From positions 1 through 36,783 of the forward strand of contig CATMRP010000029.1 of assembly GCA_950073835.1 (NCBI GenBank): a stretch of 36,783 nucleotides of DNA, given 5' to 3'. The stretch's first letter is position 1; each line of letters begins with the position of its first letter. The position numbers and the translations under genes are program-made. This document shows, in pieces, positions 15,394 through 36,783 of this stretch. Source of the stretch: an uncultured Alteromonadaceae bacterium. GTDB lineage: Bacteria > Pseudomonadota > Gammaproteobacteria > Enterobacterales > Alteromonadaceae. The notes below the pieces were generated by a model that made no database searches, was not told the origin of the DNA, and saw only the letters and a list, made by a program, of their open reading frames with translations.

Positions 15394-16215
15394 GTGGCTG
15401 ATAATAATGGTGTTTTAGCGCGAATTCGTGACAAGTATACCGACTTGTCGCCCTCGGCGCGGGCTATCGCCAATTACCTGCAACAGTTTCCGCTGACCAT
15501 CATCAGCGATTCTACCGCCGAAATTGCGGCTAAAACCAATACCTCCAAAGCCACCGTTAGCCGGCTGTTTCGTCAACTGGGCTACGCTTCCCACCAGGAT
15601 GCCAAACAGGATGTAGTGCTGCAGCGTGACGCCGGTATTCCGGTTAAACAAACCCTCACCCAGCACGATTACGTTGCTGCCGAACTTGGCAACCTGCAGC
15701 GTACCCTGGAGTCGATTCCGGGCGAAGAAATTAACCAAATCGCCGCCATTCTGGCCAAGGCGCCGCGGATCACGCTCATCGGCTATCGCAACAGTTATCC
15801 GGTAGCCCTGCACTGCCGCCAGCAACTCAAGCAAATCCGGCCAAATGTACGGCTATTACCTCAGCCAGGGCAAAGCCTGAGTGAAGATTTAATGGATCTG
15901 GCCGACGACGAAGTTATTGTGGTATTTGGCTTTCGCCGCCGCCCACGTATCTTTGCCCGTATGATTGATGCGCTGCCGCCACAACGCACCATTTTACTTA
16001 CCGATCCCACCGGTCAGGTTTATCAGGATCGCGTCGGTCATACCCTGGTGTGTCAGCTTGGCAATCAGTTCGCCTTCGATAGTTATGCCGCGCCGATGAG
16101 CCTGGTATCAGTAATCTGTAACCAGGCCTACACATTGCTTGGAGAAGAAGGCGACCACCGGGTGTCCACCATCAGTCAGCTCTATGCTCAGATGGGTGAG
16201 CTTGATCCGGAATAA
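15394..16215 (+). CDS. RpiR/MurR-family transcriptional regulator (HTH plus SIS domain)
   Basis: A 273-residue regulator: N-terminal RpiR helix-turn-helix (about 15-75; AAKTNTSKATVSRLFRQLGY) and a C-terminal sugar-isomerase (SIS) fold for ligand binding (about 120-255; RITLIGYRNSYPVALHCRQQ). It starts with GTG at 15394 with only a weak ribosome-binding site. In Klebsiella the allantoate-degradation genes are repressed by an RpiR-type protein, HpxU. Since the ureide operon begins 3.4 kb downstream, this gene is a reasonable candidate for its regulator, although ABC and MFS genes stand between. That link is inference; a role for the neighbouring exporter is the alternative. Confidence 0.88.
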   Translation: MADNNGVLARIRDKYTDLSPSARAIANYLQQFPLTIISDSTAEIAAKTNTSKATVSRLFRQLGYASHQDAKQDVVLQRDAGIPVKQTLTQHDYVAAELGNLQRTLESIPGEEINQIAAILAKAPRITLIGYRNSYPVALHCRQQLKQIRPNVRLLPQPGQSLSEDLMDLADDEVIVVFGFRRRPRIFARMIDALPPQRTILLTDPTGQVYQDRVGHTLVCQLGNQFAFDSYAAPMSLVSVICNQAYTLLGEEGDHRVSTISQLYAQMGELDPE

Positions 16216-16320: not shown

Positions 16321-17277
16321 ATGCTCAGTCAACCCAGTGAAAACGCGTTGGCGCTTAATCAGATCAGCAAAACCTATGCAGGCAAACAGGTATTAAGTCA
16401 GCTTAACCTGGCTGTCCCTTATGGCAGTGTGTATGCGTTTTTAGGTAATAACGGCGAAGGTAAATCCACCACCATCAGAGTGCTCACTGGCCTGGAGGCG
16501 CCGGATGCTGGCAGCGTTACAATCTGCGGTGACAACCTTTATGCTAAACGCCGCTCTTTGCTGTCACGCTCAGCCCGGTTTGTGCCAGACTACCGCCTGT
16601 TACATCGCCTTGGCGGCCTGATTGATGCGCCCAGCCTTTACCCAAACCTTACCGCCGCCGAGTTTTTATCCATTGGCTGTGGTATTAAAGGCCTGCCGGT
16701 CAGTGAGATAGACCGGGTATTAGCGGTGGTCTCCTTAACCGACGCAGCCAAACGGCTTATCGGCCAGTTTTCGTTAGGCATGAAACAGCGGCTCGCCATC
16801 GCCCACACTTTACTGGGTGATCCCAAATTACTGATCCTCGATGAGCCTACCAACGGCCTCGACCCCAGCGGTATTCGCGATATCCGGCAGTTGCTCAGTG
16901 AACTACCGGCCAGCACCGGCACCACGATATTTTTCTCTACGCATAACCTCGATGAAGTGGAAAAAATGGCCACTCGCTTTGCGGTATTGAAAGATGGCCG
17001 CATTCGCTTTGAGTCGGATATCCCAAGCTGGAAAGCCGCGCAACAGTTCAATATGACACTGGAAGTGGGCGACGCTAACGCAGCTCATACGGTACTTTTA
17101 AAACACGGTTTTCAGAGCACAATGACTAATCCCAACACGGTACGGGTCGAGGGGCTGCCCCGTGATGAGCAACCGCGGCTACATGCCCTGTTGGTGAATG
17201 AAGGCATTGAATTATTTCAGTCTTACCAAAGTAAAACCTCGTTAGAGCAATGGTTTACCAATGAACATACCGATTAA
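16321..17277 (+). CDS. ABC transporter ATP-binding protein
   Basis: A 318-residue ATPase subunit. Walker A is GNNGEGKST (42-50), with Glu where most relatives have Ala; the signature is FSLGMKQRLAIA, Walker B is LLILDEPTNGLDP, and the switch His is in FSTHNLDEVE. The C-terminal 90 residues are an extra domain common in drug-type and lantibiotic-immunity-type ABC-2 exporters. It overlaps the permease gene by 17 nt, so the two form one transporter. AAAAGGA lies about 10 nt before the ATG. Substrate unknown. Confidence 0.92.
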   Translation: MLSQPSENALALNQISKTYAGKQVLSQLNLAVPYGSVYAFLGNNGEGKSTTIRVLTGLEAPDAGSVTICGDNLYAKRRSLLSRSARFVPDYRLLHRLGGLIDAPSLYPNLTAAEFLSIGCGIKGLPVSEIDRVLAVVSLTDAAKRLIGQFSLGMKQRLAIAHTLLGDPKLLILDEPTNGLDPSGIRDIRQLLSELPASTGTTIFFSTHNLDEVEKMATRFAVLKDGRIRFESDIPSWKAAQQFNMTLEVGDANAAHTVLLKHGFQSTMTNPNTVRVEGLPRDEQPRLHALLVNEGIELFQSYQSKTSLEQWFTNEHTD

Positions 17278-18028
17278 TCCATTTCCTGGCCTGAGCCGGC
17301 TGCTGGCAGTTGAGTGCCTCAAGCTCAAGCGCACATCAACGCTGTTGATGGTATTTGCCCTGCCTCTTCTGGTGGCGCTGTTTTCCACCGGATTAGCCGT
17401 TAAATCACAAAACCTGGCAGGCTTTGACGCCCAGGCCTGGCAACGTTGGTGGATGGGCGTCATGGCGTTATGGAGCTACTTTATGCTGCCGATGTTTATT
17501 GCGCTCATCACCGGCGCCATTAATGGTAATGAGCACAAAAATCACGGCTGGCGCCTGATGCTGGCACTACCGGTCAACCTCTACTCTCTCTATATTGCCA
17601 AACTACTCCTTGGCGTGCTGTTAACCGCATCAGCCCTGCTGTGGCTATGGTTGAGTGGTTTGCTTGCCACCTTACTGATGACCGCGTTGGGAGCCCCAGG
17701 GGAAACGGAATATGGCATGGTATTACTCAGCGCGATGCCAGCCCTGATGCTGACTTCCCTGCCCGTACTGATCATTCAACATGCGGTGAGCTGGCGATTT
17801 GGTAATATCATTGTACCGCTCTCGGTCGCGGTCATGGCCACCATGGGGATTGTCCAAATAGGCAGTTCAGAATACTGGGTCTGGTATCCGTGGAGCTATA
17901 TGACGATGTCGGTAATGGGCGGCACCGAAGAGCTGCGGCATCATGCAGTTTGGTTATCACTGGCCGTGGCCACGGGGTTATTCTGGTTAAGCACCTTACT
18001 GGCAGCCAGCCACAAACGCGCTGGCTAA
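17261..18028 (+). CDS. ABC-2 type permease subunit
   Basis: A 255-residue membrane protein with about six hydrophobic segments. The stretch NGNEHKNHGWRLMLALPVN between helices is typical of BcrB/lantibiotic-immunity ABC-2 permeases, which pump peptides or lipophilic drugs outward. The ATG at 17261 lies inside the end of the ATPase gene, suggesting translational coupling. No bacteriocin gene was seen nearby, so the cargo cannot be named. Confidence 0.88.
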   Translation: MNIPINPFPGLSRLLAVECLKLKRTSTLLMVFALPLLVALFSTGLAVKSQNLAGFDAQAWQRWWMGVMALWSYFMLPMFIALITGAINGNEHKNHGWRLMLALPVNLYSLYIAKLLLGVLLTASALLWLWLSGLLATLLMTALGAPGETEYGMVLLSAMPALMLTSLPVLIIQHAVSWRFGNIIVPLSVAVMATMGIVQIGSSEYWVWYPWSYMTMSVMGGTEELRHHAVWLSLAVATGLFWLSTLLAASHKRAG

Positions 18029-18067
18029 CAGAAAACCGCTGCCAATTAACCAGGGCTAAAGCTGGTT

Positions 18068-19348
18068 TCAACCTGACGCTCTGACATCAGGCGTATTATG
18101 CTCTGGTAAATGTTCGGTGCGCGGATCAATCTCAAATGCCGCAGGCGTGGTAATCCCCGCCGACGGCTGAAAAGTGGGATGCGAGTCACTGGTATCAGGT
18201 AACACGTGACTACGACGGCGAATAATCACGATAACGGCAAACAACAATAAAAAGAATGTCATATAGGCATAAAGTCCTTTAGCGCCCATAACCCCCATCA
18301 GAAAAGCGGCTAACGGTCCGCCGATGGCAGAACTGATGCCATAAGTGATCAGCATTCCACTGCCAATGGGCAGAAAATCCTTTGCCGTGGCATTGTCATT
18401 CACGTGAGCCAGACAAATGGCATAGGAAGTCATACAGGTGCCGCCCCACAGAAACGCCAGTATTGCTGCCGGCCAGCCGGCAAAACCCGACCAGAACGAC
18501 GCCAGCACAATAGCCAGTGATATCAAACCGCCAGCCAGCGCATTGTAAATTAAGATGATGCGCCTGTCGTAGCGGTCAGAGAAACGCCCTACCGGGATCT
18601 GAAAACAGGCGCCACCCAATACCGTGGCCGACATAAACATAGCCAGTTGCGCATTGGTAAAGCTGCTTTCGGCAGCAAACACCGGCCCGAGCGACCAAAA
18701 AGCGCCCGTCACCAGGCCCAGGATCACCGCGCCAATCATGGCGATATGCGAATGCTGCCAGACTTTTTTAAAACTCACTCTTACACTGTTGACCTTCGCC
18801 GGGGCCAGCGACAGCGTTAGCGATACGGGTATAATCGATAGCGCAACAAAGATTGCAGCGATACTGAAAAGTAACGGATAACTGGCATCCGCTAACAGGA
18901 GTAACTGTTGAGCGAGAGTAATCATCAACAGGTTCAGCATCGAGTAAAACGACAAAATCGTACCGCGATTGGTGGCATCGGCGCGCTCATTGAGCCAGCT
19001 CTCAATAATCATATACAGCCCGGATACCCCGGCCCCCAGGGCGAAACGCAGCACCAGCCACAATACAAACGACTGTAACCAGGCAAACAGCAGCGTAAAA
19101 ATAAGATAAGCACAGGCCAGTACCGCGAACCCACGAATATGGCCAACCCGCTTCAATACATGAGGCGTCGCCAGACAACCACCTATGATCCCCAGAAAAT
19201 AGGCCGAGCCCGTTAAGGCGATTTCCACGGCAGAAAAACCCAACTGATTGGCGGCCACGGGTAATAGCGTCAACAGTAAGCCATGACCCAGCAGTAACAG
19301 TGCATCAGACAACAACAGTGCAGAAATTGGCAGCAGTGAACGAACCAT
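18068..19348 (-). CDS. MFS transporter (YcaD-like)
   Basis: A 426-residue major facilitator with about 12 predicted helices and a long cytoplasmic tail. The N-terminal half resembles the YcaD group (YMIIESWLNERADATNRGTILSFYSM). The second-half loop PVGRFSDRYDRR matches the MFS loop motif. ATG 19348 is taken as start; a TTG three codons upstream is possible. It is convergent with the ABC permease gene (39 nt apart, with only a weak stem AACCAG/CTGGTT at 18048-18067). It is divergent from the ureide operon. Substrate unknown; location beside that operon leaves an export role for a nitrogenous product open. Confidence 0.88.
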   Translation of the reverse strand: MVRSLLPISALLLSDALLLLGHGLLLTLLPVAANQLGFSAVEIALTGSAYFLGIIGGCLATPHVLKRVGHIRGFAVLACAYLIFTLLFAWLQSFVLWLVLRFALGAGVSGLYMIIESWLNERADATNRGTILSFYSMLNLLMITLAQQLLLLADASYPLLFSIAAIFVALSIIPVSLTLSLAPAKVNSVRVSFKKVWQHSHIAMIGAVILGLVTGAFWSLGPVFAAESSFTNAQLAMFMSATVLGGACFQIPVGRFSDRYDRRIILIYNALAGGLISLAIVLASFWSGFAGWPAAILAFLWGGTCMTSYAICLAHVNDNATAKDFLPIGSGMLITYGISSAIGGPLAAFLMGVMGAKGLYAYMTFFLLLFAVIVIIRRRSHVLPDTSDSHPTFQPSAGITTPAAFEIDPRTEHLPEHNTPDVRASG

Positions 19349-19518
19349 AACAAGCAATCACGCGGATAAAGGTAATAACTTTACAATACCGAGAGAACGT
19401 AAAATTGCCAAGGCGCTCTGTACTTTTAAGGCCGATAAGCAACTACCTTGCCCCATCACTACCACTCACCGCACAAAACGCCCCTCATTGTTAACAAAAG
19501 CCACAACAATTTAACAAA

Positions 19519-19555
19519 CGTTTCACTTGACTTATTAGTGAAACGATTGTTTCAT
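19519..19555 (+). promoter_or_regulatory. promoter of the ureide operon with overlapping GTTTCA/TGAAAC operator
   Basis: A -35 TTGACT (19527-19532) and a -10 TTTCAT (19550-19555, 4 of 6 matches) are separated by 17 nt. Around them lie two overlapping palindromes: CGTTTCACT (19519-19527) with AGTGAAACG (19537-19545), perfect 9-bp arms and 9-nt spacer; and TGAAAC-GATT-GTTTCA (19539-19554). A repressor bound here would cover the promoter. RpiR-type repressors often bind GAAA/TTTC palindromes, which would suit the regulator at 15394; some TetR-family repressors bind similar sequences. Confidence 0.6.
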
Positions 19556-19584: not shown

Positions 19585-20787
19585 ATGGATCATTTTACCG
19601 TTAGTTCGCCATTTGTCTGGCAACCAGCGCCCACGGTGGTGCCTGCTGAACAAGCCAGTACACCTGCTGCCAATGCAGAAAACGATAGCATTCACTCGCT
19701 GTCGGGCCTGCGCGTGGCCGTAAAAGACCTGTTTGCCATTAAAGGTACTGCCACCACCGCGGGTAATCCCCACTGGCTGGCCACGCACCCGGTAGCCGAT
19801 ACCACCGCTAGCGCCGTGACTAAGCTGATATCAGCGGGTGCTGAAGTTGCAGGCAAAACCATTACCGACGAACTGGCTTACAGCTTAAACGGGCAAAATA
19901 TCCATTACGGTACGCCGCAAAATCCACTAACGCCGGAGCGCCTGCCCGGCGGTTCATCAAGCGGGTCGGCCGTAGCAGTATCGGCCGACCTGGCCGACAT
20001 CGGCCTGGGCACCGATACCGGCGGCTCCATTCGTGTACCAGCCAGCTACAATAACCTTTTCGGCATGCGCCCAACCCATGGCCGCATCAGCACCGACGGC
20101 CTGGTCGCCCTGGCGCCCGGTTTCGATACCATCGGTGTGATGGCAAAAAGCCTTGATGTGCTTGAACGCAGTATGAACTGTTTATTCGACTCGCCGGTGA
20201 CCGATACTCCGGCGCTTACGTCTTTAGTGGTATACCAAACGGCAGTGGATAACAGTGAGCAGGCAAGTGCCGCTAAACAATGGCTTGCGTCCACACCAAT
20301 CGCCAGCCTGGCAGGTGATTTCAGCCAGTTGGAACAGCTACCGCTGGCTGAAGCGTTCAGAGTATTACAGGGGCGTGAGATTTGGCAAACTCACGGTGAG
20401 TGGATAACGAACGCGCAGCCGGTATTTGCACCGGATATTGCCGAGCGATTTAACCAAAGCGCCCAAATCAGTGACGTTGAGGTACAACACGCAACACACA
20501 TACAACAACAGGTACGTCGGCATTTAGCTTCACTGTTAAACGACAACTGCGCCATAGTGCTGCCCACAACGCCGGGTTGCGCACCGCGGTTAACAGCCAG
20601 TGCGACCGAACTGACCGACTACCGCAAACAATTATTATCATTAACTGCCTTAGCCGGACTGGCGGGTTTACCACAACTGCATTTGCCGTTATTTCGCCTG
20701 AATGACGCACCCTGTGGCTTATCAGTGATAGGCCCGGCGGGCAGTGAAACCAGCCTGTTCGCTCTGGCTCGTACCCTTACGGAATAA
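19585..20787 (+). CDS. amidase-signature hydrolase, candidate oxalurate amidohydrolase
   Basis: A 400-residue amidase-signature enzyme with the complete Ser-cisSer-Lys triad: Lys47 (VKDLF), Ser124 in the Gly-Ser loop (GGSSSGSAVAV) and nucleophile Ser148 (GTDTGGSIR), at the usual 24-residue spacing. It is first in an operon with allantoate and ureidoglycine genes and stands directly before an HpxW-like gene. In Klebsiella, hpxW is linked to an amidase-type gene (hpxY), so hydrolysis of oxalurate toward oxamate is the likely job. No separate small HpxX-like partner is present. The function is inferred from context; the family also includes allophanate hydrolase and general amidases. The ATG has no strong ribosome-binding site. 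Confidence 0.75.
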   Translation: MDHFTVSSPFVWQPAPTVVPAEQASTPAANAENDSIHSLSGLRVAVKDLFAIKGTATTAGNPHWLATHPVADTTASAVTKLISAGAEVAGKTITDELAYSLNGQNIHYGTPQNPLTPERLPGGSSSGSAVAVSADLADIGLGTDTGGSIRVPASYNNLFGMRPTHGRISTDGLVALAPGFDTIGVMAKSLDVLERSMNCLFDSPVTDTPALTSLVVYQTAVDNSEQASAAKQWLASTPIASLAGDFSQLEQLPLAEAFRVLQGREIWQTHGEWITNAQPVFAPDIAERFNQSAQISDVEVQHATHIQQQVRRHLASLLNDNCAIVLPTTPGCAPRLTASATELTDYRKQLLSLTALAGLAGLPQLHLPLFRLNDAPCGLSVIGPAGSETSLFALARTLTE

Positions 20788-20798
20788 GAATAGAAAGC

Positions 20799-22397
20799 AT
20801 GACAAAACAACAACACACTGCTTTTACCGCGCCACACTATGCTGCTTCGACAGTAGGTAACGATATCCTGCAACGCGGCGGCACCGCCATTGAAGCCATG
20901 GTCGCCGCAGCGGCCTCTATTGCGGTGGAATACCCGCATATGAACGGCCTTGGTGGTGACGGTTTCTGGCTAATCAGTGAACCGGGCAAAGCACCGGTGG
21001 CTATCGACGCCTGCGGCACCGCAGCCGAACTGGCCGACAGCGATTTTTATCAGGGCCTGGATGCTATCCCCTCGCGTGGAGGCAAAGCGGCTTTAACCAT
21101 GGCTGGTGCGGTAGCTGGCTGGCAAAAAGCACTGGAGATCAGTGCCAACTGGCAATCGCCGATGCCGCTGCAGGACTTACTGGCCACCGCCATCAGTCAG
21201 GCTAACTGGGGCATCGAAGTGACCCAGAGTATGTCGGATGCCAGTTTTAAAACTTTCGATGATTTAGCCAGTGATGAAAACTTTGCCCAGTTCTTAATTA
21301 AGGGTAAGGCCCTTAAAAAAGGCAAAATTGTTAAACTCACTAAGCTTGCTAATACCTTACAGCGCTTGGCCGACAACGGCCTGAGTGACTTTTATCATGG
21401 CGATATCGCTCGCGAACTGGCGGCCGATCTTGAAGCGGCAGGCTCGCCGATTCGGCTGAGCGATTTTAACCAGTACGAAGCCAAAGTCGTTACGCCGCTA
21501 AGTGTCTCAACCTCAAAAGGCAAACTTTACAATCTACCCGCACCTACTCAGGGCATCGCCTCGTTAATTATTCTGGCCCTGTACGACCGCGTGGTCAGCC
21601 AGGGTAATAACGATGCCGATATGGTCCACCTGCTGATTGAATGTACTAAGCAAGCCTTTATAAAGCGTAATGAATACCTCACCGATCCGGGCCGCTTAAG
21701 TGTTGATCTCAATAGTATCCTGACCGATGAAGCACTGGATGAGATGGCAGCAGCCATAAAGCTCGACAATGCTCTGCCCTGGCCGCAGGAAGCCAAACTC
21801 GGTGACACCATATGGATGGGCGCCTGTGACAACCAGGGTCGCATGGTCAGCTATATCCAAAGCCTGTACTGGGAATATGGCAGCGGTGTAGTCAGCCCGC
21901 AAACCGGTATTGTGTGGAATAACCGCGGTACGTCGTTCAGCCTGACGCCCGGTCACTTACAACAGCTCAAGCCCGGTTTAAAACCCTTTCATACCTTAAA
22001 CCCGGCCTTTGCCGAGCTTAATGATGGCCGCCGTATCAGCTACGGCACCATGGGCGGCGAAGGTCAGCCACAAACTCAGGCTGCCTTGTTCAGCCGCTAT
22101 GTTTACCACAACCAGCCACTGGATAAATCCATAGCCCTCGGCCGCTGGTTACTGGGCCGTACCTGGGGCGATCAGTCGCATAACCTCAAAGTAGAGCGCG
22201 ATCTTAACGAATACGTTGGTGAGGAACTGCTGGCCCGTGGTCACGATATGGTAGTGGTCGATGCCTGCAATGAACTCATGGGTCACGCCGGCGCAGTGGT
22301 TTTGCATGTAGATGAGACCACCGAAGCGGCCACCGATCCGCGCAGTGATGGCAAAGCTTTCGCGCAAGCTTACACCGCAACAGGAGAAGTACAGTAA
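20799..22397 (+). CDS. hpxW: gamma-glutamyltransferase-family Ntn hydrolase, probable oxamate amidohydrolase HpxW
   Basis: A 532-residue protein of the gamma-glutamyltransferase fold. The family is made as a precursor that cuts itself before a Thr, which becomes the N-terminal nucleophile. Here the site is Thr337 in LGDTIWMGACDNQG, giving subunits of 336 and 196 residues. Klebsiella HpxW, an oxamate amidohydrolase (oxamate to oxalate plus ammonia), is known to yield subunits of about 35.5 and 20 kDa, which fits. No signal peptide is seen, unlike periplasmic glutathione hydrolases, and PHMNGLGGDGFWL replaces the usual N-terminal substrate motif. It lies between an amidase and a ureidoglycine aminotransferase operon, supporting the ureide role. 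Starts 11 nt after the amidase gene. Confidence 0.78.
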   Translation: MTKQQHTAFTAPHYAASTVGNDILQRGGTAIEAMVAAAASIAVEYPHMNGLGGDGFWLISEPGKAPVAIDACGTAAELADSDFYQGLDAIPSRGGKAALTMAGAVAGWQKALEISANWQSPMPLQDLLATAISQANWGIEVTQSMSDASFKTFDDLASDENFAQFLIKGKALKKGKIVKLTKLANTLQRLADNGLSDFYHGDIARELAADLEAAGSPIRLSDFNQYEAKVVTPLSVSTSKGKLYNLPAPTQGIASLIILALYDRVVSQGNNDADMVHLLIECTKQAFIKRNEYLTDPGRLSVDLNSILTDEALDEMAAAIKLDNALPWPQEAKLGDTIWMGACDNQGRMVSYIQSLYWEYGSGVVSPQTGIVWNNRGTSFSLTPGHLQQLKPGLKPFHTLNPAFAELNDGRRISYGTMGGEGQPQTQAALFSRYVYHNQPLDKSIALGRWLLGRTWGDQSHNLKVERDLNEYVGEELLARGHDMVVVDACNELMGHAGAVVLHVDETTEAATDPRSDGKAFAQAYTATGEVQ

Positions 22398-23215
22398 TGG
22401 ATGCATTCATGGAGTTATTGCCGACGATTCTGGCACTGATGGCCACCGGCGTGTTTGCTGGTATTCTGGCAGGCTTGCTCGGCGTGGGCGGTGGTATTGT
22501 TATTGTACCGGTACTGTACTTTTTGTTTCAGGCACTGGGCGTATCGGCCGACTCAGCCATGCTGATTGCCACGGCCACCTCATTGGCAACGATTATACCT
22601 ACGTCGGTCAGTTCAATCCGCGCGCACCGTAAAAAAGGCAACGTCGACAGCGACCTGCTCAAACGCTGGGGCCCGTTTATATTACTGGGGGTACTGCTGG
22701 GCAGCTTCGCGGTAACCCAGGTGAACGGTGAAGTATTAACCTTACTGTTTGGCATTATCGCCAGCTTGTCTGCCATTAACATGTTTATCGGTAGCAAAAG
22801 CGCCTGGTTTAACGACATACCCGGCGCCCTTGGCCAGCGCATTATTGCCATTTGCATTGGTTTATTCAGCGCCATGGTCGGCATTGGCGGTGGCACACTT
22901 ACCGTCCCTACCCTGACTTTTTGTAATTATCCGGCGCACCGTGCCGTCGGCACGGCCGCTGCGGTTGGCCTGATCATCTCGCTGCCAGCAGCGGTGACTA
23001 TGCTGATTTTTGGTCAGGCGCCGGCCGATGCGCCCGATGGCACCATCGGCCTGGTTAACCTGATTGGCTTTGCCGCCATTGTCCCCCTTACTGTGTTATT
23101 CGCACCGGTTGGTGCTGGCCTGGCCAGCAAACTGGATGCCGCAAAGCTCAAGAAAGTGTTTGCCGTGGTACTGCTTATCACCGGCGTAAGAATGCTTGCT
23201 CAGAGCGTGCTCTAG
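22397..23215 (+). CDS. TauE/SafE-family membrane permease
   Basis: A 272-residue membrane protein of about eight helices with the duplicated TauE/SafE pattern: GVGGGIVIVPVL in the first half and GIGGGTLTVPTL in the second. Its ATG overlaps the stop codon of the hpxW-like gene (TAATG), so the two are translationally coupled. Family members export or move sulfite, sulfoacetate and other small organic anions. Being embedded in a pathway predicted to end in oxalate, it may carry oxalate or another pathway acid; this is inferred from position only. Confidence 0.88.
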   Translation: MDAFMELLPTILALMATGVFAGILAGLLGVGGGIVIVPVLYFLFQALGVSADSAMLIATATSLATIIPTSVSSIRAHRKKGNVDSDLLKRWGPFILLGVLLGSFAVTQVNGEVLTLLFGIIASLSAINMFIGSKSAWFNDIPGALGQRIIAICIGLFSAMVGIGGGTLTVPTLTFCNYPAHRAVGTAAAVGLIISLPAAVTMLIFGQAPADAPDGTIGLVNLIGFAAIVPLTVLFAPVGAGLASKLDAAKLKKVFAVVLLITGVRMLAQSVL

Positions 23216-23223
23216 GAGAAAAA

Positions 23224-24447
23224 ATGAAACCCTTAACCATGCCACCCCGACTGCTGATGGGCCCCGGCCCGATAAACTGCTACCCCCGGGTGTTAACGGC
23301 CATGTCGCAACAGCTGGTTGGCCAGTACGACCCGGCCATGACCAGTTGCATGAATGAAGTAATGGCGTTGTACCGTCAGGTATTTGAAACCAATAATCAC
23401 CACACCCTGTTAGTGGATGGTACCTCACGCGCGGGTATCGAAGCCGTGCTGGTCTCTGCACTCGAACCCGGCGATAAGGTGCTGGTGCCGGTTTTTGGCC
23501 GCTTTGGTCATCTGCTATGTGAAATTGCCGAACGTGCCGGTGCCGAGGTACACAGTATCGAAGTGCCCTGGGGCGAGGTGTTTGAACCTGAGCAAATCGA
23601 AAAAGCTATTCGTGAAGTACAGCCTAAAATGCTGGCGGTAGTACAAGGCGATACCTCCACCACCATGCTGCAGCCACTGGAGCACTTAGGTGAAATTTGC
23701 CGTCGCTACGACGTGTTGTTCTACTCTGATGCCACCGCATCCATTGGTGGTAACCCGTTTAAAACCGACGAGTGGCAGCTCGATGCGGTATCTGTTGGTC
23801 TGCAAAAATGTTTAGGCGGACCTTCCGGTAGCGCGCCGATTACTTTAAGCGATCGCTACGTTGAGCTGGTGCGCAAGCGTCATCATGTCGAAGCAGGGAT
23901 TCGCGAATCTGCCCACCAGTCAGGCTCAGGCAGTCGCATACGCTCTAACTACTTTGATATTCCCATGCTGCTGGATTACTGGGGTGAGGAACGCCTGAAT
24001 CACCATACTGAAGCCGCTTCTATGCTGTTTTGTGCACGGGAATGCGCCATTAACCTGATTGAGGAAGGTATTGATAACAGCATTGCCCGCCATAAGCAGG
24101 CCGGCGATGCCATGCTGGCCGGTGTGCAGGCGCTGAATCTTGAGCCATTTGGTAACCTTACGCACAAAATGCATAACGTAGTAGGCGTAGAAATTCCGGA
24201 TGGCGTGGATGGCGAGCAGATCCGCCAGCAACTGCTGCTGGATTTTAACATTGAGATTGGAACCAGCTTCGGCCCGCTGAAAGGCCGTATCTGGCGTATT
24301 GGCACCATGGGCTATAACGCGCGTAAAGATGCCGTACTGCATACCCTGCAGTCGCTGGAAACCGTGTTACGCCGCGCCGGGCATAAACTGCCTAGCGGTG
24401 GTGGTGTTGACGCCGCGCTGGATAGCTTTTCGGGTTCATCACTATGA
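23224..24447 (+). CDS. pucG: (S)-ureidoglycine-glyoxylate aminotransferase (PucG-like)
   Basis: A 407-residue class V PLP aminotransferase. Lys195 in VGLQKCLGGPSG is the PLP lysine. The sequence matches Bacillus PucG closely at LMGPGP, VGQYDPA, DGTSRAGIEA, SNYFDIPMLLDYW, RLNHHTEA and SFGPLKGRIWRIGTMGY. PucG moves the amino group of (S)-ureidoglycine to glyoxylate, making oxalurate and glycine. The next gene makes ureidoglycine, and the two genes before permease and start encode enzymes expected to consume oxalurate and oxamate. AGGAG lies 5 nt before the ATG; the stop overlaps the next start (ATGA). Alanine-glyoxylate aminotransferase is the alternative, but context and motifs favour PucG. 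Confidence 0.85.
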   Translation: MKPLTMPPRLLMGPGPINCYPRVLTAMSQQLVGQYDPAMTSCMNEVMALYRQVFETNNHHTLLVDGTSRAGIEAVLVSALEPGDKVLVPVFGRFGHLLCEIAERAGAEVHSIEVPWGEVFEPEQIEKAIREVQPKMLAVVQGDTSTTMLQPLEHLGEICRRYDVLFYSDATASIGGNPFKTDEWQLDAVSVGLQKCLGGPSGSAPITLSDRYVELVRKRHHVEAGIRESAHQSGSGSRIRSNYFDIPMLLDYWGEERLNHHTEAASMLFCARECAINLIEEGIDNSIARHKQAGDAMLAGVQALNLEPFGNLTHKMHNVVGVEIPDGVDGEQIRQQLLLDFNIEIGTSFGPLKGRIWRIGTMGYNARKDAVLHTLQSLETVLRRAGHKLPSGGGVDAALDSFSGSSL

Positions 24448-25679
24448 TGGATTTTGCCAGCCTGGCCAACCAGGTGATGTTACGTTGCGATCAGCTCGGT
24501 GCGATCACTCAGTCGCCCGGCATCGTTGACCGTCGCTATCTGACCCCGCAGCACCGTCAGGCTAACGATTTAGTGGCCCAGTGGATGCGCGAGGCCGGGA
24601 TGACAGTCTGGCAGGACGCCGCGGGGAATCAATGGGGCCGTTATCACAGTACCGACGCCAACGCGCGCTCACTGGTACTGGGTAGTCACCTCGATACCGT
24701 GCCTAACGGTGGTAAATACGATGGTATGTTAGGCGTAATTGCACCACTGGCGGTGGTGCACCATTGCTTCGAAAACGGCATCCGTTTTCCGTTTCACATT
24801 GATATCGTCGGCTTTGGCGATGAAGAAGGCACTCGGTTTGGCTCTACGTTGCTGGGTAGCCGCGCGTTAACCGGTCGCTGGAAAGAAGACTGGCAGTTAC
24901 TGCGTGATGAAAACAAGGTGTCGCTACCTGAAGCGATGGCCGAATTCGGTCTGGCTTTCGATAAAGTTGGTGATGCAACGCTTAAGCCCGACAGCGTACT
25001 GGGCTATCTCGAAGTGCATATTGAACAAGGGCCGGTACTGGAAGATAAGCACTTGCCGGTAGGTTGGGTGACCGCGATTGCCGGCGCCAAACGCCTTAAT
25101 GTGCAGGTAAATGGTATGGCCGGACATGCCGGTACGGTGCCCATGGGCATGCGCCAGGATGCCCTGGCAGCCTCCAGCGAAATGGTGCTGGCGGTGGAGT
25201 CCATTGCCAGCCAGTTTGGCATTGTCGCCACCGTCGGCCGGCTCGAAACCAGGCCCGGCGCGGTAAATGTGATCCCCGGTCAGGTCAATTTTTCACTGGA
25301 TATCCGCAGTGAGCACGACCATAAGCGCGACGCCGCATTGCAACTGATTGAAGAAGTGTTCCGCGACATCGCCCAGCGCCGCCATGTGGACGTTAACTGG
25401 CAGCAAACCCACCATGCCGATGCCGTACATTGTGATCCTTACCTGTCACAAACATTGTCCCAGGCCATTCAGCTTAGCGGCCATAACGCCGTTAGTTTAC
25501 CCTCGGGGGCCGGGCATGATGCCATGGCCATGGATGCTATTTGCCCGGTCAGCATGTTGTTTGTGCGCTGCAAAGGCGGTATCAGTCATCATCCGGGAGA
25601 GTCAGTCACCAGCGCCGACGTTGCCGCCAGTTTACAGGTTATTTATCGATTTTTTGACGCTTTTTCGCCTGACTTTTAG
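24444..25679 (+). CDS. allC: allantoate amidohydrolase (M20 family)
   Basis: A 411-residue enzyme of the M20 hydantoinase/carbamoylase branch. Metal ligands are visible: His82 (GSHLDTVPNGG), Asp93 (KYDG), Glu127/Glu128 (DEEGTRFG), His192 (EVHIEQGPVL) and His383 (ISHHPGES). AllC hydrolyses allantoate to (S)-ureidoglycine, CO2 and ammonia. The start overlaps the aminotransferase stop by 4 nt. N-carbamoyl-L-amino acid hydrolase and ureidoglycolate hydrolase share the fold, so the name rests on pairing with PucG and PuuE. No AllE-type ureidoglycine aminohydrolase is seen, which fits a route through transamination. Confidence 0.82.
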   Translation: MMDFASLANQVMLRCDQLGAITQSPGIVDRRYLTPQHRQANDLVAQWMREAGMTVWQDAAGNQWGRYHSTDANARSLVLGSHLDTVPNGGKYDGMLGVIAPLAVVHHCFENGIRFPFHIDIVGFGDEEGTRFGSTLLGSRALTGRWKEDWQLLRDENKVSLPEAMAEFGLAFDKVGDATLKPDSVLGYLEVHIEQGPVLEDKHLPVGWVTAIAGAKRLNVQVNGMAGHAGTVPMGMRQDALAASSEMVLAVESIASQFGIVATVGRLETRPGAVNVIPGQVNFSLDIRSEHDHKRDAALQLIEEVFRDIAQRRHVDVNWQQTHHADAVHCDPYLSQTLSQAIQLSGHNAVSLPSGAGHDAMAMDAICPVSMLFVRCKGGISHHPGESVTSADVAASLQVIYRFFDAFSPDF

Positions 25680-25708
25680 GCCATTTATCAAGTAGAAGGA
25701 TGATACGC

Positions 25709-26074
25709 ATGAAGATCCCCAGAATTTATAATGATGCAGACGGCAAAAGCCATTTTGGTGAAGCCGAAATCCCGCTTAAAGATGGCGGCCCAATCGGTTT
25801 ATTATCAGAGAAGATCCCGGCAGGTTCGATTATTTTTCGCGAAACCCCCGCCGACTATGATTTTAAATGGCACCCTGCGCCGACACGCCAGTTGCTGTTC
25901 ATTTTAAAAGGCCGGGCCGAATTCACCGTGTCCTCCGGCGAACGCCACGTGTACGGTGCCGGTGACGTGTTATTACTGGAAGATACCGAAGGCGAAGGCC
26001 ATTGCAGCCGCGCTATGTACAATGAAGTCCGCCATTCAATTTTTGTTACCCTGCCAGAGGGTTTCCCTTACTAG
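25709..26074 (+). CDS. small single-domain cupin, last gene of the ureide operon
   Basis: A 121-residue single cupin. ATG 25709 is chosen because AGAAGGA precedes it by 8 nt; the ATG at 25700 overlaps that site. The first cupin motif is incomplete (WHPAPTRQLLFILKG, one His and Gln in place of Glu), and the second has GAGDVLLLEDTEGEGHCS with one His. Metal binding is therefore uncertain. It is too short for AllE (a double cupin) and does not look like HpxZ. Possible roles are ligand binding, isomerisation or protection of unstable ureidoglycine. No function is assigned. Confidence 0.8.
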   Translation: MKIPRIYNDADGKSHFGEAEIPLKDGGPIGLLSEKIPAGSIIFRETPADYDFKWHPAPTRQLLFILKGRAEFTVSSGERHVYGAGDVLLLEDTEGEGHCSRAMYNEVRHSIFVTLPEGFPY

Positions 26075-26241: not shown

Positions 26242-26289
26242 ATTATTGCTTCATTGGTAACGTCTTTTTTAACCTCTACAGTGAGCAAT

Positions 26290-27765
26290 ATGTGCAGTAT
26301 GTTTTACCGGTGGAATGGCCGCCGTCCAGCCCACCTTTTGTGTCGATTCCTGTTTGCCGCCGCCCTGACGCTGACTTCGCTGTCGGTATTCAGTGCCGAC
26401 ATGAACACCTGGTTCCGGGAATTCAAGCAGAGTGCCAGTGACCAGACCCTTTACAAGCTCCTTTGGTCACTGCCCAAAGGGGGCGATTTGCACCATCACT
26501 TAAGTGGTGCCGGTTACAGTGAATGGTGGTACGACATTGCCACCCGCCCGGAACAAAATGGGGGTTACCGTTACTACACTAAAACCCGTTTACTGCAATG
26601 CCGCGGCTATGGTACCAATGAGTACGGGCCCAATCCGCAGAACCTGTTATTTCGTACCATTCAGGCCTCTACTTACGCAGCCCTCAGCGACTGTGAAAAA
26701 CAGGAATATGAGTTACTCCGCGACCTCGATGACAACACCAGACTTGCCTGGCTTAACAGTATTCGCCTGGACAAAGCCCATGAAGGGCGCAATGAGTTTT
26801 TTGAACGCCACTGGCAACGACTGAACGAACTCACCAGTAACCCGCATATTGGTGCCCATATCCTGCTCAAAAATATGCAGGCTTTCGCAGCAGAGGGGTT
26901 GCAGTACCTTGAGACTCAGGTGAATGTGGATCGCGGTATTACGCCTCAGGGCGAGTTAATGTCGCCACAAGCGTCACTGAAAGTATTTACCGATATGCTG
27001 GCCTCAGAAGCCGCCAGGAAAACCGGCGTTACGGTGCGCTTTCAATACGCTCTGCTGCGCTTTTTACCTCACGCTGAACAGCATTTACGCTGGATGTATG
27101 ATTTTGTCGATCAGCATCGCAACCTCTATGTAGGCATTAACATGGTGGGGCGCGAGGATAACGACAAAGGTTATCCGCTACGCTTCCTGCCTGTGCTACG
27201 GGATTTACGCCGCCAGTATCCGGCGATTAATCTGGCCATTCACGCCGGTGAAGTAGATGAACCTAACCAGCATGTAAAAGACACCCTGCTGCTGGGTGCC
27301 CAGCGTATTGGCCACGGCCTGAACACCATTACCGATCCGGACACCCTGCTGTTGATGCGCCATGGCCCGTATCTGATTGAAATTAATCTGATCAGTAACC
27401 GCCTGCTCGACTATACAGAAGATTATGCCAGCCATCCGTTTCCGGAGTATTTGCGCACCAATATTCCGGTGGCGCTGACGACTGACGACCGCGGCATGTG
27501 GGACAGCACCCTTACCGATGAATACTACGTAGCCGTTAAAGAATTTAATTTATCCTGGCAAGAGCTCACCGGTCTTGCCCGTCAGTCTCTTAAGCACAGC
27601 TTTTTAGCCGAAGACGATAAACAAGCCGCGCTCAATGCTTACGAGCAGCGATTGCGCCAGTTTGCAGAAACCCTTGCCCGTGATGGCGTTTCGTCATTAC
27701 CGCAAGCCGCCCCTAAACGGCGTTTTATCTGCGACTATCAACCCACTTTGTGTCATCAAGGATAG
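26290..27765 (+). CDS. exported adenosine-deaminase-like protein (ADGF/ADA2-like)
   Basis: About 491 residues with an Arg-rich N-terminus and a hydrophobic signal peptide ending near VFSA, so probably periplasmic. Adenosine-deaminase motifs are complete: DLHHHLSG (metal His pair), IHAGEVDEP (metal His and catalytic Glu), RIGHGLN (catalytic His) and TTDDRGMW (metal Asp). An extra conserved-looking insert (about residues 75-150), together with a signal peptide, recalls secreted ADGF/ADA2 enzymes rather than cytoplasmic Add. It likely turns adenosine into inosine before uptake. The start is uncertain (TTG 26254, ATG 26290 or ATG 26299). An NCS2 permease gene follows 3 nt after the stop. Confidence 0.82.
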   Translation: MCSMFYRWNGRRPAHLLCRFLFAAALTLTSLSVFSADMNTWFREFKQSASDQTLYKLLWSLPKGGDLHHHLSGAGYSEWWYDIATRPEQNGGYRYYTKTRLLQCRGYGTNEYGPNPQNLLFRTIQASTYAALSDCEKQEYELLRDLDDNTRLAWLNSIRLDKAHEGRNEFFERHWQRLNELTSNPHIGAHILLKNMQAFAAEGLQYLETQVNVDRGITPQGELMSPQASLKVFTDMLASEAARKTGVTVRFQYALLRFLPHAEQHLRWMYDFVDQHRNLYVGINMVGREDNDKGYPLRFLPVLRDLRRQYPAINLAIHAGEVDEPNQHVKDTLLLGAQRIGHGLNTITDPDTLLLMRHGPYLIEINLISNRLLDYTEDYASHPFPEYLRTNIPVALTTDDRGMWDSTLTDEYYVAVKEFNLSWQELTGLARQSLKHSFLAEDDKQAALNAYEQRLRQFAETLARDGVSSLPQAAPKRRFICDYQPTLCHQG

Positions 27766-27768
27766 CGC

Positions 27769-29160
27769 ATGTCACAACATCACATACTTTACGCACTGGA
27801 AGATAAGCCCGGCTTTATGGTTAGCCTCACGGCGGCGGTGCAACACGTTCTGGCCAGCTTTATTGGCGTGGTAACGCCAACGCTGATCATTGCTTCGGCA
27901 CTGGGTTTACAGGCTGAAGTGCCCTACCTGATCAGCATGGCGCTGCTGGTTACCGGTATCGGCACTTTTATCCAGACCCGCGGATTCGGCCCGGTGGGCA
28001 GCGGTCTGGTGGCTATCCAGGGCACCAGCTTTGCCTTTATCAGTGCGTTGCTGATGGTTGGTACCACGATTAAATCCCGGGGAGGATCGAATGACGATAT
28101 TCTCGCCATGATGTTTGGCGTTTGTTTCTGGGGCGCGTTTGTTGAAATTATTCTGAGTCAGTTTATTACCCAGCTCAAACGCGTCATCACCCCTATTACC
28201 ACCGGAGTTGTGATCATTGCCATTGGTATTTCACTGATTAAGGTCGGCATGACAGACCTGGCAGGCGGCTTTAACAGTGATGATTTTGGCAGCGTGGAAA
28301 ATCTAAACCTGGGACTAACAGTACTGCTGGTGATTATTTTCTTTAATGCGCATCGAAACCGCTGGTTAAGATTATCCGCCATTTTTATCGGCATGAGTCT
28401 GGGCACTCTTATCGCATTTTTTGCTGGCATGACCGATTTCACAGCACTCACTTCGCTGCCGGTTTTCAGCTTCCCGCAACCCTTTAAGTACGGCTTTAAT
28501 TTTGACTGGGCGCTATTTTTACCCATTGCATTAATTTACTTTTTTACGGCAATTGAAACGGCGGGCGATCTCACCGCCAACAGCTTATTTTGTCAGTTGC
28601 CGATCCGCGGCGATAAATACCTTAAGCGGATCCGGGCGGGTATCCTCGGTGATGGCTTTAACTCATTAATGGCTGCCATCTTTTGTACCTTTCCCAACAC
28701 CACCTTCGGGCAAAATAACGGTGTTATACAGATGACGGGCATAGCCAGTCGTAAAGTGGGCTACTTTGTGGCGGCAGTATTTGTGGTTCTTGGCGTATTT
28801 CCCTTTATCGGTGCAGTGCTTCAGGCAATTCCAAAACCTGTGCTGGGCGGCGCCACACTGGTGATGTTTGCCATGGTCGCCGTCGGCGGTGTTAAGATCC
28901 TGACCAGTGAACCATTAACCCAACGCAACAGCCTGATTACCGCGTGTTCACTTGGCATGGGGCTGGGCGTGATGATGGTGGGTGACGTGCTTGCTCAACT
29001 GCCACCATGGCTTGGCAACATATTTATATCACCGGTTACCACCGCGGGGTTAACCGCAATTGTTCTGACGGTAGTGCTACCTAACAATAGAGAGGCTGAC
29101 ACCAGCACAGATAGTTTGCAAAACGACGACTCGCAGCAACAGCCCTGTACTGAGAAGTGA
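27769..29160 (+). CDS. NCS2-family nucleobase permease (xanthine/uracil permease type)
   Basis: A 463-residue membrane protein of the NAT/NCS2 family. Hallmarks: QHVLASFIGVVTPTLI in TM1, GSGLVAIQGTSFAF in TM3, the acidic AIETAGDLTANS in TM8 and the family signature QNNGVIQMTG in TM10. These proteins import xanthine, urate or uracil with protons or sodium. AAGGA precedes the ATG, and the gene is 3 nt from the exported deaminase gene, so the pair is one operon. Purines rather than pyrimidines are favoured by the surroundings. Xanthine or urate are the best candidates. Confidence 0.9.
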   Translation: MSQHHILYALEDKPGFMVSLTAAVQHVLASFIGVVTPTLIIASALGLQAEVPYLISMALLVTGIGTFIQTRGFGPVGSGLVAIQGTSFAFISALLMVGTTIKSRGGSNDDILAMMFGVCFWGAFVEIILSQFITQLKRVITPITTGVVIIAIGISLIKVGMTDLAGGFNSDDFGSVENLNLGLTVLLVIIFFNAHRNRWLRLSAIFIGMSLGTLIAFFAGMTDFTALTSLPVFSFPQPFKYGFNFDWALFLPIALIYFFTAIETAGDLTANSLFCQLPIRGDKYLKRIRAGILGDGFNSLMAAIFCTFPNTTFGQNNGVIQMTGIASRKVGYFVAAVFVVLGVFPFIGAVLQAIPKPVLGGATLVMFAMVAVGGVKILTSEPLTQRNSLITACSLGMGLGVMMVGDVLAQLPPWLGNIFISPVTTAGLTAIVLTVVLPNNREADTSTDSLQNDDSQQQPCTEK

Positions 29161-29166
29161 ACAGTG

Positions 29167-29186
29167 AGCCCGGTCTTGATCGGGCT
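29167..29186 (+). terminator. possible terminator after the NCS2 permease gene
   Basis: Stem AGCCCG / CGGGCT with an 8-nt loop, followed only by TCAGCTTT, a weak T-run. It is 6 nt after the stop codon. Confidence 0.45.
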
Positions 29187-29338
29187 TCAGCTTTACATGG
29201 TGCAATGTTCAGATAATACTCCCTGAAATGGTGCAATGGGCTGAAGAAACTTTCACCGTTAACAATTACGTAACTAAAAGACCTTTTCAACCTATATTTT
29301 TATCTATATATATCAATAAATTAAAAACAAAATCAACC

Positions 29339-29354
29339 CTGACCACATGGACAG
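29339..29354 (+). promoter_or_regulatory. RutR-like operator before the TonB receptor gene
   Basis: TGACCA-CA-TGGACA, a near-palindrome agreeing with 11 of 14 positions of the RutR box, about 90 nt before the receptor start. A second inverted repeat, ATGCA-AGTC-TGCAT, follows at 29378-29391. Weaker than the sites at 26226 and 34311. Confidence 0.42.
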
Positions 29355-29441
29355 GATTTTGGCATTAAACCTGCAATATGCAAGTCTGCATAGCTATATC
29401 TCACTTAAATTTACAAAAAATCCGAGAACATGAGGAACACC

Positions 29442-31868: not shown

Positions 31869-31888
31869 GCAATACATTGTTCGACCCT

Positions 31889-31917
31889 AACGGCATGCCT
31901 CGGCATGCCGTTTTTTT
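31889..31917 (+). terminator. strong terminator or attenuator between receptor and NUP genes
   Basis: A 10-bp perfect stem AACGGCATGC / GCATGCCGTT with loop CTCG, followed by TTTTT (part of a 7-T run). It lies just 16 nt before the NUP start, so NUP is probably expressed by partial read-through, giving less NUP than receptor. Confidence 0.88.
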
Positions 31918-31933
31918 ACCTCCTGGAGAAACC

Positions 31934-33052
31934 ATGCGTTATTTATTATTGAGTTTGCTGAGTTGTCTGGCTCTGAGCGCCTGTCAGCCGGGCACGGATG
32001 CTCCTGTACAAACCACCGCCGCAGAAGCGGTAAAAACACCGGCAGAAAGCGCCGAAAAATTGCAGGTTAAAGCCGTTGTTGTTGCCATGTTTGAAATTGG
32101 CGAAGACGAAGGCGATCGCCCCGGCGAATTTCAGTTCTGGAAAGAGCGCTACGGCCTGACTGAAAAATATGCTTTCCCTCACGGCTTCCACGACCTTTAC
32201 TACAACCCTGAAAAAGGCGTACTGGGCATGGTCACCGGTATGGGCATTGCCCGCGCGTCATCGGCATTTACCGCGCTGGGACTGGATCCTCGTTTTGATT
32301 TAACCAAAGCCTACTGGCTGATAGCGGGCATTGCTGGTATCGACCCGCAGGATGGCTCAATTGGCTCTGCGGTATGGACCGATTACCTGGTTGACGGCGA
32401 CCTGGCGCATCAGATTGATGCCCGTGAAATCCCAAATGACTGGTCTACCGGTTACTTCCCGCTGTTTGCACATGAGCCCTACCCTGAACAGGATGGTGAG
32501 GTAGTGGCGCGCAACGGTGAGGTTTTTCAGTTGAACACAACATTAGTTGACTGGGCATTCAACCTCACCAAAGATATTGAGTTAATGGATACCGATGCCA
32601 TGCTGGCGTTACGTAGCAAGTACACCGAAATGCCAGCAGCGCAATTGCCTCCCAGGGTTTTACGCGGCGACCACCTGTCTGCATCAACCTTCTGGCACGG
32701 CAGACTGTTTAACGACTGGGCAAACGACTGGACGGCCTTCTGGACCAATGGCAAGGGCAACTTTATGACCTCCGGCATGGAAGACACCGGCAGCTATCAG
32801 GCGCTGACCTACCTGGATAACGCCGGTCTGGCCGATAAAACACGCGTAATGGTGTTACGTACCGCCAGTAACTTTACCATGCAGCCAACAGGCATGACTG
32901 CAGCCGAAAATCTCGCCGCAGAGAGTACCGGCGCCGGCTATGCAGGCATGCTACCGTCGCTGGAAGCCGCTTATAAGGTCGGTAGCACTGTGATTGATGA
33001 AATTGTCCTTAACTGGAACAAGTATCAGGATACCTTACCGGGTCAGCAGTAA
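31934..33052 (+). CDS. lipoprotein of the purine nucleoside permease (NUP) family
   Basis: A 372-residue protein whose ATG 31934 (GGAG upstream) gives a lipoprotein signal with lipobox LSAC. The mature part matches the NUP family throughout: VTGMGIARASSAFTALGLDP, WLIAGIAGIDPQDGSIGSAV, RGDHLSASTFWHGRLFNDWA, MEDTGSYQALTYL and VLRTASNFTMQPTGMTAAE. NUP proteins are named after a yeast permease, but the sequence is soluble in character and looks like a nucleoside-phosphorylase fold. It may therefore bind or cleave nucleosides in the periplasm. Coupled to the TonB receptor by position. An earlier start at 31877 would put a hairpin in the coding sequence. Confidence 0.85.
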   Translation: MRYLLLSLLSCLALSACQPGTDAPVQTTAAEAVKTPAESAEKLQVKAVVVAMFEIGEDEGDRPGEFQFWKERYGLTEKYAFPHGFHDLYYNPEKGVLGMVTGMGIARASSAFTALGLDPRFDLTKAYWLIAGIAGIDPQDGSIGSAVWTDYLVDGDLAHQIDAREIPNDWSTGYFPLFAHEPYPEQDGEVVARNGEVFQLNTTLVDWAFNLTKDIELMDTDAMLALRSKYTEMPAAQLPPRVLRGDHLSASTFWHGRLFNDWANDWTAFWTNGKGNFMTSGMEDTGSYQALTYLDNAGLADKTRVMVLRTASNFTMQPTGMTAAENLAAESTGAGYAGMLPSLEAAYKVGSTVIDEIVLNWNKYQDTLPGQQ

Positions 33053-36267: not shown

Positions 36268-36783
36268 CTAGTTTTCGCCGTAAGGAAAATGCTCTACCCA
36301 GTGCTGAGCAATCTGCTCCCTGGTACAACACCACACCTGTTCGTGACCCTGCACGTACTCAACAAAGCGTTTTAACGCAGCAAACCGGGCCGGGCGGCCG
36401 ATGATACGATTGTGCAGGCCTATGGATAACATCTTCGGTGTATCCTGCCCTTCTTCGTACAGCACATCGAAAGCGTCTTTCAGGTAAGTGAAAAATTGCT
36501 CACCGCTATTAAAGCCCTGCGGGGTGGCAAAGCGCATGTCATTGGTATCCAGCGTATAGGGTACAATCAACAGTGGCTTACTGTAATGCGTATCATAGTA
36601 AGGTAAGTCGTCGGCATAGGAGTCGGCGCAGTAAAGAATATCGTCGCGCTCGGCGATGAGGGCCAGCGTATTCGGGCTCGTTCTGCCAGTGTACCAGCCT
36701 GCGGGAGCTTTGCCCGTTAGCGCTTTATGACGAATGACAGACTCTTCAATCTGGGCCCGTTCTTCGTTGATATCCATGTCCTG
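36268..36783 (-). CDS. puuE: allantoinase PuuE, C-terminal part (cut by window edge)
   Basis: The frame stays open to the right edge; 171 codons plus stop are present of about 300. It matches the polysaccharide-deacetylase-like allantoinase PuuE: GWYTGRTSPNTLALIAE, DSYADDLPYY, VPYTLDTNDMRFATPQGFN, SGEQFFTYLKDAFDVLYEEG and SIGLHNRIIGRPAR. PuuE hydrolyses (S)-allantoin to allantoate, the substrate of the AllC encoded at 24444. The catalytic N-terminal half and start codon are outside the window. Convergent with the AzgA-type permease gene across the hairpin-rich spacer. Confidence 0.9.
   Translation of the reverse strand, partial: QDMDINEERAQIEESVIRHKALTGKAPAGWYTGRTSPNTLALIAERDDILYCADSYADDLPYYDTHYSKPLLIVPYTLDTNDMRFATPQGFNSGEQFFTYLKDAFDVLYEEGQDTPKMLSIGLHNRIIGRPARFAALKRFVEYVQGHEQVWCCTREQIAQHWVEHFPYGEN

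Follow-up and report, generated by a model that had tools for sequence, protein, structure and literature searches.

A conserved five-gene operon of Alteromonadaceae and relatives predicted to take allantoate to oxalate with a single-chain amidase

The contig CATMRP010000029.1 of an uncultured Alteromonadaceae bacterium (positions 1-36783, the contig ending at 36783; these 36,783 nucleotides (nt) are called the window here) carries an operon that we predict to form the end of purine catabolism. Open reading frame (ORF) calling gives six co-directional ORFs on the + strand, spanning 19585-26074, where a reading of this DNA made from its letters alone (the sequence-only reading) had placed them. 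The gene families given in that reading are confirmed by Pfam and NCBIfam (Amidase/PRK08310, G_glu_transpept, TauE, Aminotran_5, M20 allantoate amidohydrolase and a weak cupin), for the cupin by weak matches only. The gaps between the six genes are, in order, 11, -1, 8, -4 and 20 nt, so that of the range of -4 to 29 nt reported earlier the lower end stands and the upper end is corrected to 20 nt. The genes are:

19585..20787, + strand: amidase-signature hydrolase, predicted single-chain oxalurate amidohydrolase (NF006169 PRK08310, 444 bits vs cut-off 391)
20799..22397, + strand: protein of gamma-glutamyltransferase (GGT) fold, predicted HpxW-type oxamate amidohydrolase, an Ntn hydrolase (best PDB match 5hft)
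22397..23215, + strand: TauE/SafE-family permease, predicted oxalate exporter (PF01925, 171 bits)
23224..24447, + strand: ureidoglycine aminotransferase, PucG/HpxJ (3nnk, E 1e-182; PucG 3isl, E 3e-130; Pfam Aminotran_5)
24444..25679, + strand: allantoate amidohydrolase, AllC/HpxK, M20 (NF006775, 600 bits vs cut-off 479)
25700..26074, + strand: small cupin, accessory (weak Cupin_2, AraC_binding and Cupin_3 matches)

With the window PucG as query, the best 80 of 512 related loci in named genomes were taken, and gene presence in them was scored by blastp with the window proteins (match >60 bits). Loci bearing tauE, the gene whose presence defines the class, are termed class A (49/80); the other 31 comprise 28 class B loci and three more (L035, L073 and L075). 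The genes amidase-hpxW-tauE-pucG-allC lie on one strand and in this order in 46 of the 49 class A loci, in 43 with no other gene inserted; L037, L040 and L042 have an adenosine deaminase gene between pucG and allC. Because this order recurs in so many loci, the five-gene operon is conserved to an extent that is more than chance. Of the three loci without the full five, L020 lacks the amidase and L044 lacks hpxW, and L030 is a 4 kb contig starting within tauE. Class A carriers are mainly Alteromonas, Paraglaciecola, Aliiglaciecola, Marisediminitalea, Pseudoalteromonas, Thalassotalea, Cellvibrio and Tolumonas, and a plasmid record of Pseudoalteromonas sp. Bsw20308 holds all five genes, annotated there as amidase, gamma-glutamyltransferase, sulfite exporter, alanine-glyoxylate aminotransferase and allantoate amidohydrolase. 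The non-A loci belong to Enterobacterales, Pseudomonas, Alloalcanivorax and one Alteromonas. Their fetched stretches contain an RpiR-type gene (30/31), allC (31/31), an amidase (27/31) and hpxW (23/31), and in 22 loci amidase and hpxW both run opposite to pucG. The neighbourhood search for all six genes that the sequence-only reading had proposed thus recovers five of them in order, and the cupin in only 13/49 class A loci, a count in which short divergent cupins may be overlooked and in which one of the 36 cupin-less loci (L008) ends soon after allC. On this count the cupin was rejected as a core member and is optional. Its single-sequence structure model has a mean predicted local distance difference test score (pLDDT) of 46.4, and the best E in a PDB sequence search was only 0.033.

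By its model scores the operon amidase is a member of the PRK08310 family and not of the AtzE/HpxY family. PRK08310 was the sole NCBIfam match at E <= 1e-62 in all 31 operon amidases scanned (that of the window and 30 of the 47 from class A loci), and the window protein falls far under the cut-offs of the AtzE models (TIGR02715, 179 < 426; NF006631, 191 < 461). In contrast, all 16 non-A amidases scanned (of 27) match the AtzE models, with a best E of 1e-237, and the Klebsiella oxytoca amidase is well above the cut-offs of these models. A tree of 61 of 85 sequences (24 near-identical rows dropped) is consistent with this division, placing the purine-linked amidases together (37 rows, 100/100), surrounded by PRK08310 relatives of other genomic contexts, and HpxY in a separate group (16 rows, 100/100) beyond a very long branch; a few rows in this tree have long branches or odd composition. 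Lys47, Ser124 and Ser148, which we take to be the catalytic residues, are invariant in 31/31 operon amidases. The AlphaFold2 model of the window amidase (mean pLDDT 92.1) has a confident amidase-signature fold, and its nearest structures by VIA-align, 2dc0, GatA, 6c62 and malonamidase E2, are plain amidase-signature folds; the alignment to 6c62 begins only at residue 33 of that chain. Amidase relatives at E <= 1e-40 occur in 14 of 369 gammaproteobacterial genomes, the source genome included. Genome G315 has the order pucG-allC-rpiR-amidase-permease, the permease being of family PF03547, and carries its hpxW at another place; here the amidase is still linked to pucG where hpxW and tauE are not. 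Around PRK08310 relatives outside the operon (L109-L116, eight stretches of 13.5-18 kb) there was no blast match to pucG, hpxW or tauE, a miss through ORF choice being possible, and no pucG match of >45% identity was listed on their contigs. Across the 46 five-gene class A loci, identity to the window protein is 41-92% for the amidase (median 48), 67-99% for PucG (median 76) and 48-97% for HpxW (median 66), so that the amidase is diverging far more quickly than these two operon partners.

The helper proteins of the AtzE/HpxY amidases were sought genome-wide in the source genome (95.6% complete) and in 43 relatives (30 class A genomes and 13 others). No HpxX (PF13318) protein was found in the source genome, in a search without a positive control of its own, and the earlier statement that the amidase has no visible small partner holds at this scale. 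The PF13318 model detected proteins in 13/43 relatives and so serves there as a working control: HpxX is present in 1/30 class A genomes (L038) vs 12/13 others, the sole non-A genome without it being an Alloalcanivorax (L078) whose fetched stretch shows no amidase. HpxZ (PF11533) was likewise not found in the source genome, and is present in 1/30 class A genomes (L053, Tolumonas) vs 13/13 others. AllG, a component of the E. coli oxalurate enzyme, was found neither in the source genome nor in any of the 30 class A relatives, and is present in 3/13 others. PMC6219798 reports that AtzE is insoluble without AtzG and that AtzH processes the AtzE product. Since HpxX and HpxZ are mostly not found where the operon occurs, the class A amidase should, by analogy, work without either type of helper. 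The best reading of these family assignments is that a predicted single-chain oxalurate amidohydrolase has replaced HpxX-HpxY(-HpxZ).

The remaining enzymes have closer relatives of known structure or name. The closest solved chains to the GGT-fold protein, by PDB sequence match, are those of 5hft, an entry named only gamma-glutamyltranspeptidase; because the HpxW of K. oxytoca, encoded in a cluster with AtzE-type and AtzH-type genes, matches 5hft over its whole length, we regard 5hft as Klebsiella HpxW. In 5hft the small chain begins with a Thr to which Thr337 of the window protein aligns, and the window protein is predicted to cleave itself before this Thr337. Thr337, Tyr357 and Arg376 are kept in 47/47 class A and 21/21 class B proteins, and in the two other GGTs of the source genome the Thr is kept and positions 357 and 376 differ. 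The DYREMAP/DGREMAP and SPGG stretches common to those two GGTs are missing from the operon protein, which keeps the residues of Klebsiella HpxW and is thereby predicted to be an HpxW-type oxamate amidohydrolase. At position 358, in the segment after the catalytic Thr, Trp is present in 47/47 class A proteins vs His in 21/21 of class B, a split that may mark a functional difference. The aminotransferase matches the characterised 3nnk and 3isl over its full length, and the Klebsiella ureidoglycine-glyoxylate aminotransferase (3nnk) is its closest solved relative, above PucG (3isl). The AllC-like protein clears the NF006775 cut-off but lies below those of other allantoate models, such as TIGR03176 AllC (218 < 598). 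The order of chemistry put forward in the sequence-only reading, AllC, PucG, amidase and then HpxW, fits these predicted families.

That reading missed an RpiR/HpxU-type regulator and its likely operator:

15394..16215, + strand: RpiR-family regulator (HTH_6 + SIS; Pfam PF01418/PF01380), predicted HpxU counterpart
19539..19554, no strand assigned: perfect palindrome TGAAACGATTGTTTCA, predicted operator of the RpiR regulator, ending 30 nt before the amidase start codon

An ABC pair and an MFS gene separate the window RpiR gene from the operon, which begins 3.4 kb downstream of it; in 13 of the 26 class A loci having an RpiR gene, that gene lies 78-237 nt before the operon, and 11 of these 13 have the palindrome. 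Perfect TGAAACN4GTTTCA sites number 27 in 1.62 Mb of fetched loci, whereas 119 permuted half-sites average 0.07 and never exceed 2. The 27 sites are not independent events, since many of the loci are close kin; 25 of them precede the first gene of a class A operon, and the other two are in Alloalcanivorax clusters. A site with 0 mismatches precedes the first operon gene in 24/26 class A loci with RpiR vs 1/22 testable loci without it (Fisher p 3e-10, ignoring kinship). Among non-A loci, 30/31 contain an RpiR-type gene that the window RpiR matches by blastp at 33-39% identity, and TGAAACN4GTTNCA stands near the called start of that gene in 27 of the 30; for two of the three misses (L052 and L066) such a site lies just beyond the scanned stretch. 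HpxU is reportedly, going by the title of a 2013 paper by Guzman, an RpiR-type repressor of the Klebsiella pneumoniae allantoate cluster. The window gene and palindrome match this arrangement and are a candidate HpxU counterpart and its predicted operator. The source genome as a whole has 4 palindrome sites vs 1 for a reversed control. A larger palindrome regulon was considered for it and rejected, two of the other three sites lying inside ORFs and none beside a purine-tied gene (from ORF lists, with no family scan). L053, the Tolumonas that is the only one of 30 class A genomes with HpxZ, has an operon without a clear palindrome despite its RpiR gene.

We propose that the operon carries out the end of purine catabolism, from allantoate through ureidoglycine, oxalurate and oxamate to oxalate, with a single-chain amidase, export by TauE and repression by RpiR, a reading to which we assign a probability of about 0.72. 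AllC would convert allantoate to ureidoglycine with release of NH3 and CO2, and the PucG/HpxJ enzyme would transaminate ureidoglycine with a 2-oxo acid to oxalurate. The PRK08310-family amidase, standing in place of the HpxX-HpxY pair and mostly also of HpxZ, would hydrolyse the terminal amide of oxalurate, the resulting carbamate decarboxylating to leave oxamate and NH3, and HpxW would release a further NH3 from oxamate to give oxalate. Nitrogen would thus be recovered without urea or urease. TauE would carry the end product oxalate out of the cell, and the RpiR-type regulator (15394-16215) would repress the operon through the palindrome at 19539-19554. The computed ground for this scheme is family membership, conservation of the operon, the searches in which HpxX, HpxZ and AllG were not found and oxalyl-CoA decarboxylase (Oxc) stayed under its cut-off, and the association of regulator with operator. 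We infer from it every substrate, the repression, and the direction and cargo of TauE. Several points weigh against the scheme. Its substrates are predicted from family; one operon is without the amidase (L020) and another without HpxW (L044); and class A genomes can have a PF13318 protein (L038) or HpxZ (L053, Tolumonas). As to the regulator, no RpiR gene is present in the fetched stretch of 23/49 class A loci, two Tolumonas loci have an RpiR gene and no clear operator, and L045 has an operator and no RpiR gene in its stretch.

It is improbable, in our estimate, that the amidase acts on a different ureide and that oxalurate is cleared by an unrecognised enzyme. The fast divergence of the amidase (median 48% vs 76% for PucG) could mean a shifting specificity, and the operon of L020 lacks the gene altogether; however, every other hydrolase of the operon has a step assigned to it, and searches of the source genome and the 30 class A genomes found no AllG. 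The PRK08310 model names no substrates, and so would also be compatible with cleavage of oxalurate at its oxalyl amide to oxalate and urea, HpxW then using oxamate from another source, as would the class A locus without hpxW (L044). We regard this as quite improbable, given that hpxW and the amidase occur together in 46/49 class A loci, that the operon hpxW shares the HpxW signature, and that a urea-forming step would make HpxW needless. The public records, in which the GGT-fold protein bears the name gamma-glutamyltransferase, would agree with a reading of it as an ordinary enzyme of that kind and of the operon as a loose nitrogen-scavenging set. This reading was rejected and is very improbable: 5hft provides the closest solved chains to the protein, which scores 296 < 358 bits for g_glut_trans, lacks the DYREMAP/DGREMAP and SPGG residues of the source genome's own GGTs and keeps those of Klebsiella HpxW.

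The part of the proposal that concerns TauE has a rival of its own. The tauE gene lies between hpxW and pucG in all 47 of the 49 class A loci that show both. Oxc was over its cut-off in neither the source genome nor the 43 relatives of both classes, with a positive E. coli control, other oxalate-degrading enzymes not being searched. If oxalate is a dead end it must leave the cell, and since tauE adjoins the gene of the predicted oxalate-forming enzyme, TauE probably exports oxalate. The named members of the TauE/SafE family export small anions, and a search for relatives of this TauE gave no functional name beyond sulfite exporter. Oxc was also missing in the 13 non-A genomes, whose loci lack tauE; the absence of Oxc is for this reason no test of TauE as an oxalate exporter and is not in itself a pointer to that role. 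TauE could instead import allantoate or another ureide, in place of the ABC transporter of the enterobacterial hpx cluster: 28/31 non-A loci lack tauE and carry a gene for an ABC ATPase on the pucG strand, whereas class A loci have tauE, and purine permease genes in the window suggest that uptake genes are common in this neighbourhood. The position of tauE between hpxW and pucG within a catabolic operon argues against import, as do the export of small anions by its named relatives and the tie of the cluster to intracellular purine breakdown, which would form allantoate inside the cell. We consider import unlikely, though it deserves serious weight, and retain oxalate export as the probable role.

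The genes around the operon fit purine use, as judged from their families. Downstream lie an adenosine-deaminase-like protein related to the growth-factor type, a xanthine permease, a TonB receptor and a NUP-family protein (26254-33052), likely a purine scavenging set, followed by an adenosine deaminase and a second purine permease. At the end of the contig there is one further feature:

36268..36783, - strand: PuuE allantoinase, C-terminal part, in the last 516 nt of the contig (3cl6 PuuE, E 1e-61)

The distance of 10 kb given earlier for PuuE is about right, and the contig end at 36783 cuts the gene so that only its C-terminal part is there. After puuE, Glaciecola sp. KUL10 (L029) has a TetR gene and genes for xanthine dehydrogenase, and OHCU decarboxylase, which acts in a step before allantoin, is present in the source genome and in 20 of the 21 class A relatives searched. 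Upstream, between the RpiR gene and the operon (16321-19357), are an MFS gene and an ABC ATPase/permease pair that resembles the transporters of lantibiotic immunity; the ABC pair and/or the MFS gene are present in L008-L014, and in L015-L017 the amidase comes directly after the RpiR gene. At 9428-15268 a LysR gene is followed by two pairs of carbonic anhydrase and SulP-type transporter, which look like paired bicarbonate uptake modules, the second SulP being nearest to the BicA model and below its cut-off.

The sequence-only reading had held that joining the PucG route with HpxW was little described. The combination itself is not new, since the route is known Klebsiella HPX chemistry: 3nnk is a Klebsiella enzyme, the pucG and allC counterparts of K. 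oxytoca (L083) adjoin hpxW, an AtzE-type amidase and an AtzH-like gene, and papers name HpxW as the oxamate amidohydrolase and HpxY as the oxalurate amidohydrolase of the HPX pathway. The Klebsiella system (hpxJK and hpxWXYZ, with repressor HpxU) shares with the window counterparts of HpxK/AllC, HpxJ/PucG and HpxW and an RpiR-type regulator, and in non-A loci a related palindrome, TGAAACN4GTTNCA, stands near the start of the regulator gene. In contrast, the window has a single operon, an amidase of another family, no HpxX or HpxZ found, and TauE without an ABC transporter in the operon. In PMC6219798 the enterobacterial cluster ggt-atzG-atzE-atzH stands beside a transaminase, an ABC transporter and an allantoate amidohydrolase, with a regulator described as LysR-family, whereas here an RpiR match is seen; and AtzE of Pseudomonas sp. 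ADP (AtzG-AtzE-AtzH) is reported to need AtzG for solubility, whereas for the window amidase no AtzG-like protein was found in the source genome. The Bacillus subtilis PucG route has a like aminotransferase (3isl), but that of the window scores higher with Klebsiella 3nnk. The oxamate branch of E. coli, as given in PMC11326118, also passes through oxalurate and oxamate and uses the oxamic transcarbamylase AllFGH; it forms carbamoyl phosphate, whereas the window route is predicted to be hydrolytic, AllG not being found. The window departs from HPX in its amidase family, in having lost HpxX and HpxZ, in its TauE permease and in the single-operon layout, and together with the regulator link these features make it a variant of that system. 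A literature search, covering few subscription journals, found no account of a tauE-type operon or of TauE as an oxalate exporter.

More broadly, and with somewhat less than even confidence, we suggest that marine Gammaproteobacteria have a widespread alternative end to purine breakdown, in which a PRK08310-derived family of oxalurate amidohydrolases does alone the work of HpxX-HpxY-HpxZ, with TauE as oxalate exporter and with control by a regulator and operator of HpxU type that are conserved between Klebsiella and Alteromonas. The operon provides a named candidate for the oxalurate step where neither known solution, HpxX-HpxY or AllFGH, was found. It also predicts a substrate for the PRK08310 amidases, a family without a named function, and a cargo for the TauE permease, and implies that some public records misname these genes, HpxW as a glutamyltransferase and TauE as a sulfite exporter. 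If the proposal is true, the use of purine nitrogen would be a source of oxalate in the sea, with purine-fed cells releasing oxalate to seawater.

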